From positions 4,058,785-4,122,784 of the forward strand of contig NW_026947502.1 in assembly GCF_034190915.1 (NCBI RefSeq): a stretch of DNA of 64,000 nt, given 5' to 3'. A program made the translations under genes and the position numbers. The notes beneath the pieces were generated by a model. It had not been told where the DNA came from and searched no databases. It saw only the letters and a list, made by a program, of their open reading frames with translations. Shown here piece after piece: positions 4,893 to 62,800 of this stretch; the stretch's first letter is position 1, and each line of letters starts with the position of its first letter. Origin of the DNA: Cavia porcellus. Taxonomy: Eukaryota > Chordata > Mammalia > Rodentia > Caviidae.

Positions 4893-5155
4893 ATCAGTCG
4901 TACATGGGCGTAGAGGTGCGTGTCTGTAAGGCTGAGGAAGGAGGACGGAAAGTTTGAGGTCAGCTTGGACAACTTAGGGAGATCTTGTCTGAAAGAAGGA
5001 AAAAAAGAAAGAGAGTGGAAGGGAGGAGAAGGGAGGGGAGGGGAGAGGGGAGGAGAGGGGAGGGGAGGGGAGAGGAGAAGGGAGGGGAGAGGAGAGGAGA
5101 GGAAAAGAGAAGAGGAGAGGAGAGAGGAGGGGAGGGGAGGAGAGAAGAAGGTTTT
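4893..5155 (+). repeat. Degenerate B1 followed by a (GGGGA)n/GA purine tract
   Basis: 4893-5000 is a weak B1 (GTGCGTGTCTGTAAGGCTGA, AGGTCAGCTTGGACAACTTA). From about 4993 to 5153 the + strand is almost pure A/G, mostly GGGGA, GGAGA and GAGGA units. It probably grew from the SINE tail. Confidence 0.7.
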
Positions 5156-21384: not shown

Positions 21385-23209
21385 ATGTGTCCTGCCATCA
21401 GCAGCACAAGCAGCTTCCCCACCCTGCTCCTGGTCCTGCTCTCACTGCGCCCTGGTCTCCAGTATCCTACCCCCAGCCAGCACTGGAACACAGATATGTG
21501 CAATGACACCATCAGGGAACTTTTCCAAGAACTGGAACGTCTCACGGAGAAGTCGGTGAGTACTCAGGGTGGACTCTCCCTGGAGCAGTGGGGCTCCGGC
21601 AGGTGCCTTGGCCACAGTCCTCATGGCCCTCTCTCCCTGTCCCCGCAGGATTCTCCTGGCGTGGAAGTCCAGATGCTACTGTGTGTAAGTGTTCTACCTC
21701 ATACTTGGACATAGCTGGGTCTCGATCCGCCTCCGGCCTGGCAAACTTGGCCGTGTCTTTCCATCTCATATGCTTTTCAGAAAAGGGCCTGACTCAGTGG
21801 TGTTATGAGAATCAAATGATGCAAAGCACCTGGCACCTAACAGGTGTTCAGTGCAGAACCCTGCCCAGGACTGTCACAGTGGAGGCTGCCTTTAGATTAC
21901 AAAAAAGTGGATTTAGCCACACATCAGCCAGGGTCTTAGTCTCTGTTTTTAGTAGGGCAGCCCCTTCCAACAGACTCTACCCATTTCTTTCCTTCGCATT
22001 AAAAAACCTGAGCTTCTGTTTTTCACTTTCACCAGCCCTGGGCATGATTATTTGCAGTTATTTTTCAACTCCAGCTAGCTGCAATGTTTATCCATTGTTT
22101 ACTTGGCACATCTTGAATTGAACATGAAGTTTCAATTCAGGGAATCCTCCACTTCATTCCCTGAGTTTAGGGCCCTTCTGGGGCATTCATAGCCCGCAGG
22201 TGGCACCCATCTCCAAGCTGGGGTCCTTGGGATTTTCTTCTCCTGATATCCAGGAGCCCTGGCATTAACTTTGATATCTGGCTTCTTATAAACAAATACT
22301 GTCCTTGGCCAAACCTCTGCCATTTCCAGGCCTTCTCATGGGAGATGTTTTAGCTCCGAGAGCAGGAAGATCCATTCTGGTCCTTTATGAGCTTACGTGG
22401 AGCCGGGGGTTGGAGCTTGGTGTTTGGAGGTGCAGATCCTGCCTGGGAATACCTGGGCTCCTTGGGGGAGCTCAGGCACCCACTTGGGGGCAATGAGAAT
22501 ACCAAGGGAAGGTTGTTCAAAGATGCCCCAGCAGCAGGCTCAGGACGCTGGAGGGAGGAGTATAGCCTGGTCAGGAGAGGACACTGCCCAACTCTCCTGC
22601 TCTCTCCTGCATTCCTGCCCCTTAGAACAACAGTCTTTGGAGAAATAACTTGTGTGAGTTCCTGAGTGCTATAAAGACATTCCCAAACGCAACAGAAAAG
22701 CTGAAGAACAACCTTGAGGTATATGAAATCATCAAGGGTTTGGGGGACCCTGGTGTTGGGTCTGTCTGGGTTTTCAGGGTCTTACAGCCTACTTTGGTCT
22801 CTTCCCATAGTATCTGAGGGTGTTTGTACCTGCATCCTACACCCAAACCATGCGGCGGGTAAGCTGTCCCCTGGATGCCCCTGTGGGTGGGCACTGTGAC
22901 CTGACCCTCAGCCTATCCTTCCCCTTGCCACATGGGCTGCTGTCAGGCCTTGTGGCTAAGCAACTGGCCCAGGTCCGCAAAGCTCATGAGTGGTGCATCT
23001 AACGTCGTCCTCCTGGCTTTTCACAGAAAAAATCTGTCACCTTCCGCAACTGGAACGACTTCGGGAGGAAACTGCACTTCTTCCTTAGGTCCATCACCTG
23101 TACGGGGTCCAAGTCGGTGCAGAGCACCACCAGCCTGTCCCTGGAATGTGGTTTTGTCCCTGAGTATTCTTCAGAAAACTGGCAATGCTTAGCAGAGCAG
23201 ACCGTCTGA
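21385..23209 (+). CDS. IL3: Interleukin-3 precursor, five coding exons
   Basis: Secreted four-helix cytokine that acts on haematopoietic progenitors, mast cells and basophils through the IL-3 receptor alpha chain and beta-common. Coding exons: 21385-21555, 21649-21684, 22626-22718, 22811-22858 and 23027-23209. All introns are phase 0 with GT/AG ends, giving 176 aa. The five-exon layout with tiny exons 2 and 4 (36 and 48 bp) is typical of IL3. Residues 1-26 form a signal peptide ending RPGLQ, as in human IL-3. Helix A (CNDTIRELF) keeps the family glutamate at 45. Exon 3 contains NNSLWRNN...EFLSAIK, comparable to human ENNLRRPNLEAFNRAVK. Exon 5 contains NWNDFGRKLHFFL, comparable to human DWNEFRRKLTFYL. 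Sequons are N40, N70 and N90. Oddities: the exon 4 cysteine of human IL-3 (LPCLP) is absent, extra cysteines occur at 69, 79, 141, 157 and 170, and the C-terminus runs about 20 residues past the human end. The start was chosen for the signal peptide and its position after the TATA box. Identity is near certain; exact exon 4 boundaries slightly less so. Confidence 0.95.
21695..21850 (+). repeat. MIR element in IL3 intron 2
   Basis: GGTGTTATGAGAATCAAATG, GCAAAGCACCTGGCACCTAA and CAGGTGTTCAGT follow the MIR 3' plan. Confidence 0.6.
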
Positions 23210-33139: not shown

Positions 33140-33220
33140 GAGATTCCACAGTTCAGGTAGTTCCCCCGCCTCCCTGGCTTTTGTGGTCACCATTAATCAT
33201 TTCCTCTAACTGTGTATATA
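33140..33220 (+). promoter_or_regulatory. CSF2: CSF2 proximal promoter (CK-1, kB/CLE2, CLE0, TATA)
   Basis: CK-1 box GAGATTCCAC at 33140-33149, then the kB-like/CLE2 stretch AGGTAGTTCCCCCGCC (33155-33170), the CLE0 element around CACCATTAATCATTTCCTC (33188-33206; AP-1-like plus Ets/NFAT core), and TATATA at 33215-33220. This order and spacing match the inducible T-cell promoter known from human and mouse CSF2. Transcription should begin near 33245. Confidence 0.9.
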
Positions 33221-33278: not shown

Positions 33279-35191
33279 ATGTGGCTGCAGAACCTGCTTC
33301 TCCTCGGCACTGTGGTTTGCAGCATCTGTGCACCCACTGACCTGCTCAGCCCTGTCACCCAGTCCTGGAAACACGTGGATGCCACCATCAATGAAGCCCT
33401 GAGCCTCCTGAACCACACTAGTGACCCGGCTGCTGTGATGGTGAGTGAGGGAGAGAGAATGTGGGCTGCCCTGGGCAGCCTGCCTGCTGGCCCCGTACTG
33501 GCCCCGCCTGACAGCTGGATAACATGATGTTTTCCTTTCCACAGAATGAAACAGTAGAAGTTGTCTATGACCAGTTTGAGCCCCAGGTAAGGTGCTTCTC
33601 TCTCAGGCACACTCTGTGTCCTGGGGGCTGGGTTCCAGATGGATCTTCACAGGGAATCTACTTCCTTGCCAGTCAACCGGCTGCCAAGGGGAGGGAGTAG
33701 CTTTTGGGTGCCACTCACCTGGCACCTGGTGGTCACATGAGCTCCTTTATCAACTGAGCAGCTGGGGGCAAGCCTCCAATTCAAAGGCAAAGGGTCACTG
33801 GGGGATGGAGGAAAAGCCAGGTCTTCCTGAGATGGGGTTGTGGGCCAGGGGCACTCTCTGTATCCTAAGTCCAAGCCTTGTGGAGACAGGGTTTTAGAAG
33901 CAGCCCTGGCTCACAGAGCAAGTCAGAGGCAATGCCCCGCCCCACCCCGCCCCTTCTCTTGAATGGTGAGGTGAGTGTGGGGGCTGGGACCTCCTGAGGC
34001 TTTGGGCTGAGGGAGGATCTGTGCTGGCTGAGGCTGGCCTGAGCCAGGGAGGAAGGGAGGACAGATGTGTGTCTGCAATGCACACAGCAGTGTGCAGGAC
34101 TGGCCCAGCCTGAGACTAGTCAGGAGTCATTCTGTGCCCCTCTGAGGCCCTGGGGCAGGGGTGACACGGGAATGAGTGATGAGGCAGGTGGCCACCGCTG
34201 GTGCTTGGCCTCTGCTCACTGTGAACCGGGCATGTTCGCAGGAGCCCACATGCCTGCAGACCCGCCTGGCGCTGTTCATGAAGGGCCTGAGAGGCAACCT
34301 CACCAGGCTCGAGGGCTCCTTGACCTTGATGGCCAACTTCTACAAGCAGCACTGCCCCCCGACCCCGGTGAGTGCCCTTGGCTGGCAGGGTGGGGACAGG
34401 TGGGGAGAGGCCTGCAGCAGAGGCTGCTCAGGACCCGGAAAGGTTTCCTGCTAACAGATGTATTATGAGGAGCCCTGAGAAAGGGAGCCACCGGCAGCGC
34501 ACCCTCTCAGCCCTAGGCGGCAAAGCCTGCAGCGCTCCCTACTGGCAGCTGCTGCCCCCTTGTTTCATCTTGGGCAGGAATGAGGTCAGAGGTGAGGCCA
34601 ACCCAGAAAAAAGCAGGGCATGTCCTAGGTCCACAGGAAGTGCCAGCCGCATGCTGCCTCCTAGTATTACTTTCCTGTGGGGTGCCAGATTGCACTGGAG
34701 CAAGGAGGAGAACTGTCTGGCAAAGATGAAGGCACCAAACACCCTTCTTCCTGCAAGAAGCCAGTAATGGGTGGGTGATGGGTGGCAGCCTCTGCCTGAC
34801 CTCTGGGCCCTGGCCGGGGATCAAGGGGCAGTGCGACAGCCTAGAGCAGCTCAGAGTAGCATGTTGTCAGGACGCTAGCCCCAGCCACCCTTGGTAGAGC
34901 TGCGGAGCTCTTGGGCAGCACATGGGTAGCAACAGAGTCACCTGACCAACCCTCCCCCGGCCCCAGGCCTGGGCCTTCAATGGCCTCCACATTTTCAGAG
35001 GCGGTACAGAAATGCACTGCTTTTCCCCATGTTACCCACTCACCTGGACTCAAGTGTTTCTTATTTTCATTTTTTTTCTTAAGGAAACTTCCTGTATGAC
35101 CCAGATTATAACCTTCAAAAGTTTCAAAGAGAACCTCAAGAGGTTTCTGTTTGCTGTCCCTTTTGACTGCTGGAAACCGGTGCAGGAATGA
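33279..35191 (+). CDS. CSF2: GM-CSF (colony-stimulating factor 2) precursor, four coding exons
   Basis: Secreted cytokine for granulocyte and macrophage growth and activation, signalling through the CSF2 receptor alpha chain and beta-common. Coding exons: 33279-33440, 33545-33586, 34242-34367 and 35084-35191, all phase 0 with GT/AG introns, giving 145 aa (human 144). Exon 2 is 42 bp and encodes [14 protein letters not shown]. The protein starts [15 protein letters not shown], nearly the human signal peptide, with cleavage expected after residue 17. Helix A (HVDATINEA) keeps the beta-contacting glutamate at 39. Four mature cysteines at 72, 106, 114 and 139 correspond to the two family disulfides (72-114 and 106-139). 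The end FDCWKPVQE matches human GM-CSF. Sequons are N45, N55 and N87. It lies about 12 kb downstream of IL3 in the same orientation, as in other mammals. The start codon has the conserved context AGGATGTGG. No defect is seen. Confidence 0.98.
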
Positions 35192-35491
35192 GGCAGCTCG
35201 GGTGGCTGGGCCAGCCCTTGGAGCTCAGTGCCCAGGCTGCGACTGTCTCACCGGGACAGAGGCGGAAACCCAGGACCTTCCCTGGAAGGGACCAAGAGGT
35301 GGCCACAGCCACAACGCAGGGAGCACGGACCTGCCATGGGCCACCTGGACCCTGATGTGGCTGTGGAAGAGGATATTTTATACTGTCAGAATCTGGAGTA
35401 TTTATTTATATATTTATATTTCTAAAATATTTATTTATTTATTTATTTAAGTTTATAGTCTGTATTTATTCCAGATGTATGCCATAATAAA
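35192..35491 (+). promoter_or_regulatory. CSF2: CSF2 3'UTR with strong AU-rich element and poly(A) signal
   Basis: About 50 bases at 35398-35450 consist largely of overlapping ATTTA pentamers, the prototype GM-CSF AU-rich instability element. AATAAA is at 35486-35491. Confidence 0.93.
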
Positions 35492-35529
35492 TTATTCAAA
35501 GTCTGATTTTATTTTGTGTCCTTTTCCAG

Positions 35530-36478: not shown

Positions 36479-36520
36479 CTGATAAGAGGTTTGCATTTCC
36501 TTACACTCATATATATAGGT
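36479..36520 (+). promoter_or_regulatory. KK34: KK34 proximal promoter (GATA, CLE0-like, TATA)
   Basis: CTGATAAGAG at 36479-36488 is a good GATA site, followed by a CLE0-like TTGCATTTCC with an Ets core (36491-36500) and a TATA box TATATATAG (36510-36518). The order GATA, CLE0, TATA resembles the IL5 promoter. Transcription should start near 36540, which selects the ATG at 36588 and gives a 5'UTR of about 48 nt. Confidence 0.65.
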
Positions 36521-36587
36521 ACCCTTTCCCACAGAAATGCTGCCAAGCCTGGGCTCGAGCTGGCTGGAGCCTCCTTCAAAAGGCATC

Positions 36588-38262
36588 ATGCACCTTTACA
36601 TGCTCCTGGTTTGTGCGCTCTGGATGTCAGAAAGCCACTCGGCACCGATGACAGCAGTCACCACAACTTCTGAGAACAATCTCACGGCGCTCTGTGATGA
36701 GATTCGGCAGAATCTCGTTGATGACACGGAGATGTACCCGGTAAGCCCGGGTCTCCCTTGACCATTCTGTCCTGGTGGCCATTGTGTTTCTGACCAATTT
36801 CTCTTGCTGCCAGGGTTCCTTCACAAGGCCCCAGAACACCAGTGAGGTAAGCAACATCTACTCTTTGGGCTTTTGGGGCACATCTGAAGAGGGAGAGGGG
36901 ATGGCCTTGGTCAGCACACAGGGTAGAGAACAGAACAAGCAACACTGGAGACTTTGAAAGCTTAAGGACAGATCCTCCAGCTCTGCCAACAGACAGACCA
37001 GTGGCCAGGCCCTGGGCTTTAGCACCCTCTTCTGCCACCATCCCAGCACAGCTGAGGGCCACCTCCATGGGTCTCCTGCAGGTGGGTCACCAGCTCAGGG
37101 CCTGAGCTTAGGAACAGGGCTCATCAGGCTACAGCAGCCCAGGACGGAGGACCAGCTGTGCCCCCCAGTGCGCTCCCACTATTCAGTGCCCCCCAACCCT
37201 CTTTCAGGAGCTCTGCTATGCAGAGTTTACAGAGATCTTCACCTGCATCTTGAAGAACCTCACAGAAATGCTTATAAAGAATAAAAAACCCGACCAGCAC
37301 ATAAACAAAGTTTATAAAAACATGGTGAAGCTCCCTCGGATCTGCCCAAAGCTGGAGGTAAGTTACTATTCACTGTTAAGGGATGCTGGGACTTAATCTC
37401 CCTCTACCATGCCAGGGGCCCAGTAGGGCAGGCAAAGGCTTACCACTGGGCACCCTGAGGCTTTGGGTGCTATTCTTGGGCTGCACAGAGAGCTGCTCTT
37501 TGGGATTGTCTCAAACCCTGATTAAGTCCACTGTCTGACTGGCTGCTGGGCGGCGAGTGAAAAGCTGAACATGAAGAAGTGTAAACTCAAGGGGTGGTTC
37601 TGGGGGTTTCTGGCTACACCTCTGGCCAAGGCCCTGTCCCCGCCAAAGTCAGGGCAGGGCAGGCAGGTCTGAGATAAATAAGTTGGAGCTGGGCTCCCGT
37701 TTGCCCCATCCTTGGGTCTCTTCTGGGCTGAGGGGTCCCATGGGGAGCCCATGCCGGGGGAAAGAGCTATAGTTAAAGGGGGGCATCTGGAGAAATTGCT
37801 GAGTTGTTCTCTCTCTGCCAACTGCTTTCATGGTCCTTGGTGTGCTCCCCCGCTTCTGCTGTCCTCCTGCTCTCGTCCTGGGCAGCCCTGGGACCTGCCT
37901 ACCGCTGCTGGCTCCCTCACCGTGGCTGCTGCGGTCCTTGGACTCGGCCCCGACTGCCTTCACCCTGGCAGGTGGAGGGGGCCTCCCCGAGCTACCCCTG
38001 GGAATGGGGCTCACAAGACTCTCATGGCTGGGATGACCAGAGTCTGCTTTTATTTTATTGATTTGTGTTTCTCCTAAATCAATGACTTAATCATGTGTTT
38101 CTTATTTAGCCAACAGACTCACCCAAAAACTGTGCCACTGAGGAAAGTAATTTCTCCATGTTCAAGCAAGCCCTAGAGAGTGTGATCACATCCATAGAAG
38201 GATGGACATCATGTCAGAAGATCCAGGGCAGCCTCGGGGACCCTGTCCTCTTCCAGGTTTAG
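36588..38262 (+). CDS. KK34: KK34-type cytokine (fourth IL-3/IL-5/GM-CSF family member), four coding exons
   Basis: Predicted secreted four-helix cytokine of 162 aa. Coding exons: 36588-36740, 36814-36846, 37208-37357 and 38110-38262, all phase 0 with GT/AG ends and no internal stop. Residues 1-18 are a hydrophobic signal peptide ending SHS. The mature start APMT recalls human IL-3. Helix A (ALCDEIRQNL) has the family glutamate at 38. Exon 2 is exactly 33 bp, the IL5 size. Exon 3 begins ELCYAEF (compare IL-5 QLCTEEIF). Exon 4 reads NCATEESNFSMFKQALESV and then GWTSCQKIQ, comparable to GM-CSF SCxTQxxxFxxFKENL and FDCWxPVQ. Cysteines 65, 108, 120 and 147 fit the GM-CSF disulfide positions; 36 and 75 are extra. 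Sequons are N31, N59, N79 and N126. The gene lies just downstream of CSF2. KK34 is known from chicken and, as I recall, some mammals; function is little known. An in-frame ATG at 36537 would add 17 residues, but the TATA position argues against it. Alternative call: a divergent IL5 or CSF2 duplicate. Confidence 0.85.
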
Positions 38263-38409
38263 AGCCATAAGAAACAGGCTGGGGTTGCGGAGGGGAGTTC
38301 ACTGGCCTTGGGCGATGGGGTGATGTCCGACATGTGGGGGTGGCAGGGAGGGGTGTTTGCCCAAAGACACATTTGTAATGGACACATTACTGTTGTCAGC
38401 TTCAATAAA
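38263..38409 (+). promoter_or_regulatory. KK34: KK34 3'UTR and poly(A) signal
   Basis: AATAAA at 38404-38409 lies about 140 bases after the stop and is followed by a G/T-rich stretch from 38411. Unlike IL3 and CSF2, this short 3'UTR contains no ATTTA pentamer. Confidence 0.75.
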
Positions 38410-38627
38410 GTTGGGGTGTGGAGAGCTGGGGAGTGAGAATCACTCTCAAATAGCCTCACTGGGGATCGCACTGACTGGAGGGGCGAGAGGGTTCCGTCAC
38501 AGGGCTTTTGACCTGGAGGCCCAGAGGTCATGCAGGAAAAGCCTCCGGCCCTGGGTGGACAGGCAGAACCCACGCGAGCCTTCCCTCTCTGCATCTTTGT
38601 AACAGTGTGACCTGGGAAGGGCTCTGT

Positions 38628-44644: not shown

Positions 44645-45535
44645 AAAGAAACGCTAATAGATTTTACAGAAGTCAGGATAGAAAAGCAACACAATTCTTT
44701 CAAAGTTTAGAAATGCTCTTAGGCCACTGGTGTAGGCAAAGACTATGAACAAAACCCAAAATGCACAAGAACCTCACAGAGAATCAACAACTGGGTTCTC
44801 AACTTATTGAAAAGCTTTTTCACAGCAAGAGAAACTACCAACAGAGTGAAGAGACAGTGCACAGAGTGAGAAAAAACTTTTGTCAGCTGTTCTTCAGGCA
44901 AAGGGTTACTATCAAGAACACAGAATGCAAAGAAAGCAGATCCCCTAAATTTAAAGACCCAACCCAGAAATGGGCATCTGAGATGAATACATACTTCTAA
45001 GATGATAAAACAAAAATGGCAAACAAATATATGAAAAAATGTTCAATACTATTGGTCATTCATGAAGAGAAAATTAAAACAACACTGAGATTGCATCTCA
45101 CCTCAGAAAGAATGGCTATTAAGAAATCAAACAACAACAAAGGCTGGTGGGGCTGTGGGGAAAAGGAAGCCTTCTCCACTATTAGTGGAAATGCAGACTG
45201 GTGCAACCACTGTGGAAATCAGTGTGGAGATTCCTCAAAAAACTAGGACCAGAGGTTCATTCAACTCGGTTATTGTCCTTGGTATCTTCTTGAAAGAATT
45301 AAAAGCATCATATTGTAGTGATATATGCATATCCATGTTTATAGCAGAACAGTTTTAATAGCCAAATCTTGGAAACAGTACAGATGCCCATCAAGTAGTG
45401 AATGGATAAAGAAGATGCGATTTTTAAAAAATACAATGCAGCGGGGCTGGGGATTTAGCTCAGCGGCATAAGCGCCTGCCTTGTAAGCAGGCAGTCGTGG
45501 GTTCGATCCCCGGTACCGATAAAAAGGAAAAAGAC

Positions 45536-45576
<41 letters not shown>

Positions 45577-46005
45577 TGCAGTACTACTCTGCCATAACAA
45601 AGGATAAGCTTGAGACATTTCTAGGTAAATAAATGCACCTTGAGACCATATTCATAAGTGAAATAAACTGCACATGTAAGTAACTCCCAGTTTCTCTGGT
45701 GTGAGAAGATAAAAGTGTAAAAAGAAATGAAAGGCCAAAATATATAATGGGTATTTGGAAATAAGAAAATGTTCAAATGGGGAGGAGAACTAGGGAGGAG
45801 GGAAGGGGGAAGGAAAGAAGGAAAAGGTTAACAAAAATGAAAAAAGAGGGAAAAATGGAAACAAACCTTTTGTAAATGGGGAGAAGGGGGAGGGTTGAAG
45901 AGAGGGTAGAAACAAGTTAGATCATGTACAGGTATAAATTCTCTATGATGAATGTGATCATTATATATACCTGAAATGTGCCAATAAAATCTGATTAAAA
46001 AAAGA
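44645..46005 (+). mobile_element. L1 3' end (ORF2 C-terminus and 3'UTR), with ID insertion
   Basis: The C-terminal ORF2 remnant includes AACTACCAACAGAGTGAAGA, ATGGGCATCTGAGATGAATA and GATGCCCATCAAGTAGTGAA. A purine-rich 3'UTR follows (45775-45900), ending CCAATAAAATCTGATTAAAA. Truncated at its 5' side and crossed by stops. An ID SINE is inserted at 45442. Confidence 0.75.
45426..45581 (+). mobile_element. Young ID SINE with perfect 16-bp target-site duplication
   Basis: The ID body (45442 on) has an intact tRNA-like box A (TTTAGCTCAGCGGCATAAGC) and box B (GGGTTCGATCCCCGG), then a long A tail (about 45537-45570). The direct repeat AAAAAATACAATGCAG occurs at 45426-45441 and again at 45566-45581. 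Inserted in an L1 3' end. Confidence 0.92.
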
Positions 46006-61399: not shown

Positions 61400-62800
61400 C
61401 TGATTCTGAATGGGCAGTCAGGTTTTAGCCTTCTGATAACAAATAATATGGGATCTGTATCTTGCCATGTACTAAAGTAAAATTGAATCATCAAATATCT
61501 AAATGTTAAAATGGAAACAATCTTCTGGAAAACAGAATAGGGAAAATTCTTGAAGACATAGGTACAGGCAGACTTTATAAACAAAACCCAAGTTGCCCAG
61601 GAAATATTACGAATAATCAACAACTTGGATCTTGTCATATTAAGCTTTTATACAGCAAAAGAAATCACCAACAGAGTGAAGAGATGACCCACAGAGCAGG
61701 TAAAAATGTTTTTTACTAGCTATCCCTCAAAGGACTAATATCTCGAATATATAAAAAGTTCAGACTCCCCAAATTTAAAGACCTAATCTAAAAATGAGCA
61801 CCTGAAATGAATAGACAGTTCCAAAATGATGTACAAACAGTAAATAAACATATGAAAAAGTGTACAACATCAGTGGCCATCTAAAAAATACCCATTAATA
61901 CAACAGTGAGATTCCATCTTGCTTCAGAAAGAATGGTTGTCATCAAGAAATCAACCAATAACAAGTGCTGGGAAGTAATAGGGGAAAAGGAACCTTTCTC
62001 CACTATTGAAGAAAGTATAAATTGGTATGAACAATATGGAAGTAAGTTTGGAGATTTCTCAAAAATAAAACTATAGCTTCCATTTCACCCAACTATTCCC
62101 CTTCTTGGCATCTTCTCAAAAGAGTTAAAGGAATCTTGGGGGCTTGGGATTTAGCTCAGCGGCATAAGCGCCTGCCTTGCAAGCAGGTAGTCGTGAGTTC
62201 AATCCCCAGTACCAATAAAAAGGAAAGAGACAAAAAATAAAAGAGTTAAAGGAATCTCACCATAGTAATATATACATACTCATGTTTGTAGGAGCACAAT
62301 ATTTAAAAGCTGAATCTTGGAAACACCCCATATGTCCATCAATGGATTAATAAAGAAAATGTGGTTTTTATATACAATGTACAGTACTACTCTCCCATAA
62401 AGGATAAACAAGACATTTTCAAGGAAATGAATGCACAACGTTGAGATCATAATTTTAAGTGAAATCAATCTGACACATCTTTAAACATCTCATTGTTTCT
62501 CTTGTGTAAGAAATGAAAAGGGCAAATAAGAATCGAATGATATAGGTATTTGGGAAATAGGGAAAATGTTCAGGGAAGGGAAATGGGGGATGGGGAGGTA
62601 AAACAAAAGAGAATAAAAGGAAAAAATGGAAACAAAGTTTTTATAAATAAGGAGGGGAAGAGGGCTTGAAAGAAGGTAAGAAGAATGTGGAAAAATGAAA
62701 TATCAAGATATAGTATGTACAGGTACAAATTCCCTATGATGAATGTGATCATATGTATAACAAGTATACCAATAAAATTAACATTTTAAAAACAGACAAA
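61400..62800 (+). mobile_element. Second L1 3' end of the same family, with ID insertion
   Basis: It parallels the copy at 44.6-46.0 kb: CACCAACAGAGTGAAGAGAT, ATGAGCACCTGAAATGAATA, CCATATGTCCATCAATGG, a purine-rich 3'UTR (62570-62690) and CCAATAAAATTAACATTTTA. 5'-truncated and decayed. An ID lies at 62137-62238. Confidence 0.75.
62118..62257 (+). mobile_element. Young ID SINE with perfect 19-bp target-site duplication
   Basis: The ID body starts at about 62137 with TTTAGCTCAGCGGCATAAGC and has box B AGTTCAATCCCCAG. AAAAGAGTTAAAGGAATCT occurs at 62118-62136 and 62239-62257. Inserted in the second L1 3' end. Confidence 0.92.

Follow-up and report, generated by a model that had tools for sequence, protein, structure and literature searches.

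A probable KK34 gene, intact and adding to the IL-3/IL-5/GM-CSF group, next to CSF2 in a rodent

Introduction

A stretch of rodent DNA of 64,000 nucleotides (the window) contains a small four-exon gene downstream of CSF2, and the question is whether this gene is an intact KK34, i.e. a fourth member of the IL-3/IL-5/GM-CSF cytokine group. Responses of eosinophils, macrophages and basophils are driven by cytokines of the beta-common type, which also serve as drug targets. The job of KK34 is hardly known, because human and mouse are said, in a review, to carry a pseudogene only. From the analysis reported here it is well supported that another intact gene of the IL-3/IL-5/GM-CSF group lies next to CSF2. 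We consider it likely, at a probability of roughly 80%, that this gene is an intact KK34, a fourth group member that a rodent has retained.

Results

Gene model of the KK34 candidate

The initial annotation had described four phase-0 exons, GT-AG introns and 162 open codons, all of which we could re-derive at 36588-38262. The four coding exons lie on the plus strand and encode a product of 162 amino acids followed by a stop; their lengths of 153, 33, 150 and 153 nt are all multiples of 3, and every exon is in phase 0. The intron donors read GTAAGC, GTAAGC and GTAAGT, and the acceptors TGCCAG, TTTCAG and ATTTAG. The TATA promoter and the poly(A) signal that had been named together with the exons were likewise found, at 36510 and 38404. 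The gene thus comprises the following features, together with one further promoter element and an alternative start codon:

36494..36501, plus strand, CATTTCCT element, starting 16 bp upstream of the TATA box of the KK34 candidate
36510..36515, plus strand, TATA box (TATATA) 5' of the KK34 candidate
36537..36539, plus strand, upstream in-frame ATG, an alternative start codon that would add 17 residues (36537-36587)
36588..36740, plus strand, coding part of exon 1, 153 nt, covering the helix A region and the signal peptide, judged by eye to span about residues 1-18
36814..36846, plus strand, exon 2, 33 nt
37208..37357, plus strand, exon 3, 150 nt, expected helix B and C region
38110..38262, plus strand, exon 4, 153 nt including the stop TAG, expected helix D region
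38404..38409, plus strand, AATAAA poly(A) signal 3' of the KK34 candidate

Upstream of the assigned start codon the frame stays open as far back as a stop at 36516. The in-frame ATG at 36537 comes 27 bp after the TATA box begins and hence about where transcription should start, which makes 36588 a likely, not a certain, start codon. The signal peptide proposed earlier corresponds to a hydrophobic stretch followed by SHS-AP, a call that was made by eye. The protein contains four N-glycosylation motifs.

Coding signal and simulated decay

When the bases of the spliced coding sequence were shuffled, 161 codons remained open in 10 of 20000 cases. The other frames of the spliced exons are interrupted by stops, 8 and 10 in the forward direction and 4, 5 and 9 in reverse. 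At the first, second and third codon positions the GC content is 0.46, 0.37 and 0.63, and none of 5000 shuffles equalled this spread; the introns have a GC content of 0.53-0.58.

Neutral decay of the gene was simulated in 4000 runs under assumed rates, with transitions making up two thirds of the changes, 0.1 indels per substitution and 80% of the indels shifting the frame. The gene was still fully intact in 49.6% of the runs at 0.01 substitutions per site, in 25.8% at 0.02, in 3.6% at 0.05 and in 0.125% at 0.1; at 0.15, 0.2 and 0.3 no run kept it whole. As long neutral decay breaks the simulated gene, a long-dead relic would be very unlikely under this model, which leaves room for a recent loss.

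Genomic neighbourhood and repeats

The gene had been placed 3' of CSF2 and in the same orientation, and the positions of the neighbouring genes bear this out:

33279..35191, plus strand, coding exons of CSF2 (GM-CSF), 162, 42, 126 and 108 nt, with PDB matches that are GM-CSF chains
21385..23150, plus strand, IL3, a partial model with three recognised exons and approximate ends

The poly(A) signal of CSF2 is found at 35486, and the start codon of the KK34 candidate follows about 1.1 kb downstream on the same strand. The candidate gene is therefore located downstream of CSF2 in the cluster, a place that we take to be the KK34 position. P4HA2 and ACSL6 are the human neighbours of the cluster; in tblastn searches of the window with typed, unchecked queries neither P4HA2 nor part of ACSL6 was found (best E 2.1 and 1.6), and a typed IL5 query found no IL5 (best E 0.59). 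The neighbourhood is thus confirmed on the IL3-CSF2 side only. The IL3 of the window (21385-23150, partial model) is very divergent, and its signal peptide and C-terminus look, in our judgement, mouse-like.

Among the repeats of the window there are ID-type, tRNA-derived SINEs, for instance at 45443 and 62139, and B1-type SINEs, at least two of which, out of five copies inspected by eye, carry a 29-bp internal duplication. We take SINEs of the ID and B1 types to be rodent repeats. The tRNA-like copies at 45443 and 62139 have a squirrel-like look, but the 29-bp duplication in B1 presumably counts against a squirrel, dormouse or mountain beaver as host. Two longer repeats (44744-45990 and 61576-62778) are seemingly related, and each has an ID-type SINE inside it, by eye in different places. 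A purine-rich tandem array of the GGAGG type extends over about 130 bp at 5013-5145.

Control region and DNA comparison with CSF2

The 8-mer CATTTCCT, which we take to be a CLE0-like element, occurs identically in the CSF2 promoter, where it is located at 33198, 17 bp before TATATA. It is absent from the 300 nt scanned for IL3. When the promoter cores of the KK34 candidate and CSF2 were compared, 20 of 3000 shuffles reached their score, a figure that holds for a core picked after seeing it. The comparison of the whole promoters is not significant, as 226 of 2000 shuffles reach the score. At the other end of the gene, the 178 nt after the stop of the KK34 candidate (38263-38440) contain no ATTTA, whereas the 3' stretch of CSF2 (35192-35520, 329 nt) contains nine.

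On the DNA level, the window compared with itself by BLAST gave no match between the KK34 candidate and CSF2 at E 1e-6. A direct comparison with the CSF2 locus yielded a best E of 0.063, which is not significant; one match at this level, 17 nt long, immediately precedes exon 4 of each gene. Judged from these comparisons, the KK34 candidate is not a recent copy of CSF2.

Protein and exon similarity within the group

A Pfam search with the 162-aa protein gave no match above the cut-off: IL4 appeared at E 0.028 and COX6B at E 0.21, and IL3, IL5 and GM_CSF were unmatched. With single exons as queries, exon 1 matched GLYCAM-1 below the cut-off (E 0.092), and exons 3 and 4 matched nothing. As far as we are aware, Pfam has no KK34 model. 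As controls, CSF2 of the window matched GM_CSF at 2.3e-66 and a typed human IL-5 sequence matched IL5 at 7.3e-64. Since these two proteins match their own models strongly and the KK34 candidate matches neither, it is neither CSF2 nor IL-5. The missing Pfam match does not exclude the candidate from the group, because the IL3 exons of the window also match the IL3 model weakly (two of three at E 0.058 each, below the cut-off, and the first exon not at all). The earlier claim that the protein is neither IL-3, GM-CSF nor IL-5 therefore stands for GM-CSF and IL-5; for IL-3 Pfam says little, and the window has a separate IL3 gene. A PDB sequence search with the 162-aa protein returned two chance-level matches alone, to the leptin receptor (E 0.72) and SipA (E 0.81). 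Scans of viral and prokaryote contigs with the same protein gave 7 and 11 pattern matches, none of which could be confirmed, in keeping with the gene being mammalian.

Pairwise similarity was then assessed for full-length proteins and for single exons by 2000 shuffles per pair. For the full-length KK34 candidate, the p values were 0.07 versus CSF2, 0.12 versus IL-5 and 0.03 versus IL-3. The accepted members gave 0.06 (CSF2-IL-5), 0.035 (CSF2-IL-3) and 0.87 (IL-5-IL-3) among themselves. On these sequence scores, the accepted members of the group, which evolves fast, are no closer to each other than the KK34 candidate is to them.

The clearest likeness is found in exon 4, which reached p values of 0.002 versus CSF2 exon 4 and 0.024 versus IL-5 exon 4; exons 1-3 were no better than shuffles when compared with the exons of CSF2 or IL-5. 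As a control from the same DNA we used 1641 open segments of 40-50 amino acids, sampled every 25 residues. Exon 4 of the KK34 candidate scored highest among the 1641 segments against both the window and the human CSF2 exon 4, in a ranking that left out segments starting at 34901-35299, i.e. CSF2's own exon. The match to IL-5 exon 4 is without weight, because at least ten other segments of the window score above it. When exon 1 of human IL-3 was the reference, exon 1 including the signal came third among the 1641 segments, outscored by two that belong to the window's IL3 exon. For the mature part of exon 1 the comparison with IL-3 is no evidence, since 7 of the 1641 segments, the candidate's own included, reach the score. 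In tblastn searches with typed human queries, CSF2 hit exon 4 at E 1.6 and IL-3 hit exon 1 at E 1.3.

Exon architecture, cysteines and helix A

The coding exons of the KK34 candidate are short and of phase 0, with a very short exon 2, which is a trait of the group. IL3 has five exons, compared with four in the rest of the group, and exon 2 of IL5 is 33 nt long. The cysteines are located at positions 3, 13 and 46 of exon 3 and at positions 8 and 35 of exon 4. The first cysteine of exon 3 at position 3 compares with position 4 in both the window's CSF2 and human IL-5, and the first cysteine of exon 4 at position 8 compares with position 4 in the window's CSF2 and position 3 in human IL-5, with exon limits of human IL-5 that we assume. 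The last cysteine of exon 3 is 5 positions from the exon end, the same as in CSF2 (5), and the pair in exon 4 (8, 35) is 27 residues apart, close to the 25 residues of the CSF2 pair (4, 29). It follows from this register in exons 3 and 4 that all four GM-CSF cysteine places are filled. Two further cysteines, at positions 36 and 75 of the precursor, bring the mature protein to six, and this additional pair could form a third disulfide.

In helix A there is a DEI pattern with its glutamate at mature residue 20; the corresponding positions are 22 in the window's CSF2, 21 in human CSF2 and 22 in human IL-3. We take this helix-A glutamate to be the residue that contacts the beta-common chain, a role that the candidate's glutamate would match by position only.

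Structure prediction with AlphaFold2 from the single sequence reached a pLDDT of 39, for precursor and mature chain alike. In the mature model, four helices (11-26, 44-68, 72-84 and 105-124) stand in plausible places, and the precursor model breaks up into eight helical pieces. A Foldseek search with the precursor model yielded 76 matches at E 10 or below; none reached 0.001, and no cytokine was among the best 50 of the 76. Being of such low confidence, the fold models are no evidence either way.

Discussion

Placement of the gene in the IL-3/IL-5/GM-CSF group rests on several sequence features, i.e. the exon architecture, the four GM-CSF cysteine places, the glutamate in the presumed helix A and the match of exon 4 to CSF2. 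The name KK34 was assigned from the position and architecture of the gene and by exclusion. The gene probably encodes a secreted cytokine of the beta-common receptor. The proposal that a functional KK34 has been retained is borne out in so far as the sequence is intact and coding-like.

In the most likely course of events, KK34 would be made by T cells or innate lymphoid cells and secreted after cleavage of the signal peptide near residue 18. The mature protein would fold as a short four-helix cytokine with two GM-CSF-like disulfides and perhaps a third one between Cys36 and Cys75. It may bind an alpha chain together with the common beta chain, with the helix-A glutamate (mature residue 20) making the conserved beta-c contact, and signal through the beta-common receptor with JAK2/STAT5.

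Other origins of the locus have to be weighed against this reading. The likeness of exon 4 and of all four cysteine places to CSF2, the CATTTCCT and TATA elements that stand at near-equal spacing in both promoters, and the 17-nt match (E 0.063) just before exon 4 of both genes would also suit an old tandem duplicate of CSF2, special to this lineage, in place of an ancient KK34. Such a duplicate is nevertheless improbable, as exon 2 has 33 nt versus 42, exons 3 and 4 differ in length, exons 1-3 resemble those of CSF2 no better than shuffles do, and two further cysteines are present. In addition, the gene shows no significant likeness to the CSF2 locus at the DNA level, and KK34 has reportedly been found downstream of the cluster in chicken and other mammals.

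It is also conceivable that the gene is a KK34 that was lost recently, with expression and selection gone and the frame still open for lack of time. Loss of KK34 happens, since the human and mouse copies are called pseudogenes in a review, and simulated genes stay intact in 49.6% of runs at 0.01 and still in 3.6% at 0.05 substitutions per site. This scenario appears unlikely given that the splice sites, the TATA box and the poly(A) signal are intact too; with the assumed rates the simulation makes a long decay very unlikely. Finally, the absence of a significant Pfam or PDB match and of a confident fold might point to open segments and GT-AG sites that line up by chance, with no gene at all. 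This is scarcely credible, because an open frame arose in only 10 of 20000 shuffles and the codon-position GC spread in 0 of 5000, and the locus, which adjoins CSF2, has the exon layout and the spacing of cysteines seen in the group.

With an intact KK34 as the preferred reading, it should be considered that mammalian KK34 was published in 2016, so that the kind of gene is known and an intact retention here is less surprising. What is added is, apparently, an intact KK34 copy in a rodent. More tentatively, and with some doubt on our part, a functional KK34 may survive in part of Rodentia, mouse and its kin having lost a beta-common cytokine that other rodents use. With six mature cysteines and none of the ATTTA decay signals found in CSF2, this cytokine might be made from a more stable message and perhaps bind a receptor alpha chain of its own. 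If true, an intact rodent KK34 would offer a small animal for testing its function and help to date the loss in the mouse lineage.

Comparison with known cytokine systems

KK34 was reportedly described in chicken in 2004 (Avery et al.). Work from 2016 (Yamaguchi et al., Dev Comp Immunol 65:268) is said to have identified it as a fourth ancient member of the group that occurs in many mammals. The gene is reportedly intact in cattle and pig and present as remnants in human and mouse, and bovine KK34 reportedly induced STAT5 phosphorylation. The rodent gene resembles chicken and mammalian KK34 in its likely group membership and in its location downstream of the IL3-CSF2 pair.

With CSF2 the candidate shares the adjacent position on the same strand, the four phase-0 exons, the four cysteine places, the similarity in exon 4 and the promoter core. 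It differs from CSF2 in its 33-nt exon 2, its longer exons 3 and 4, the two further cysteines, the missing GM_CSF match in Pfam, and the complete lack of ATTTA in 178 nt after the stop, compared with nine in 329 nt. A 33-nt exon 2 and cysteines near the start of exon 3 and exon 4 are traits in common with IL-5, whereas the missing Pfam IL5 match, the extra cysteines and an exon 4 similarity that is not distinctive set the two apart. The IL-5 gene occupies another place in the Th2 region. Reminiscent of IL-3 are the APMT with which the mature chain begins and the DEI pattern in helix A; however, a separate IL3 is present in the window at about 21.4-23.1 kb, and the similarity of the mature part alone is not distinctive.

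In chicken, gamma-delta T cells are reported to contain KK34 RNA. Mouse KK34 is called a pseudogene in the review, unlike the candidate, which is intact in a rodent. A parallel history is seen in IL-15L, which belongs to another cytokine group and locus: this ancient cytokine is reported to be kept in some mammals and to be a pseudogene in rodents and higher primates (PMC7658486).
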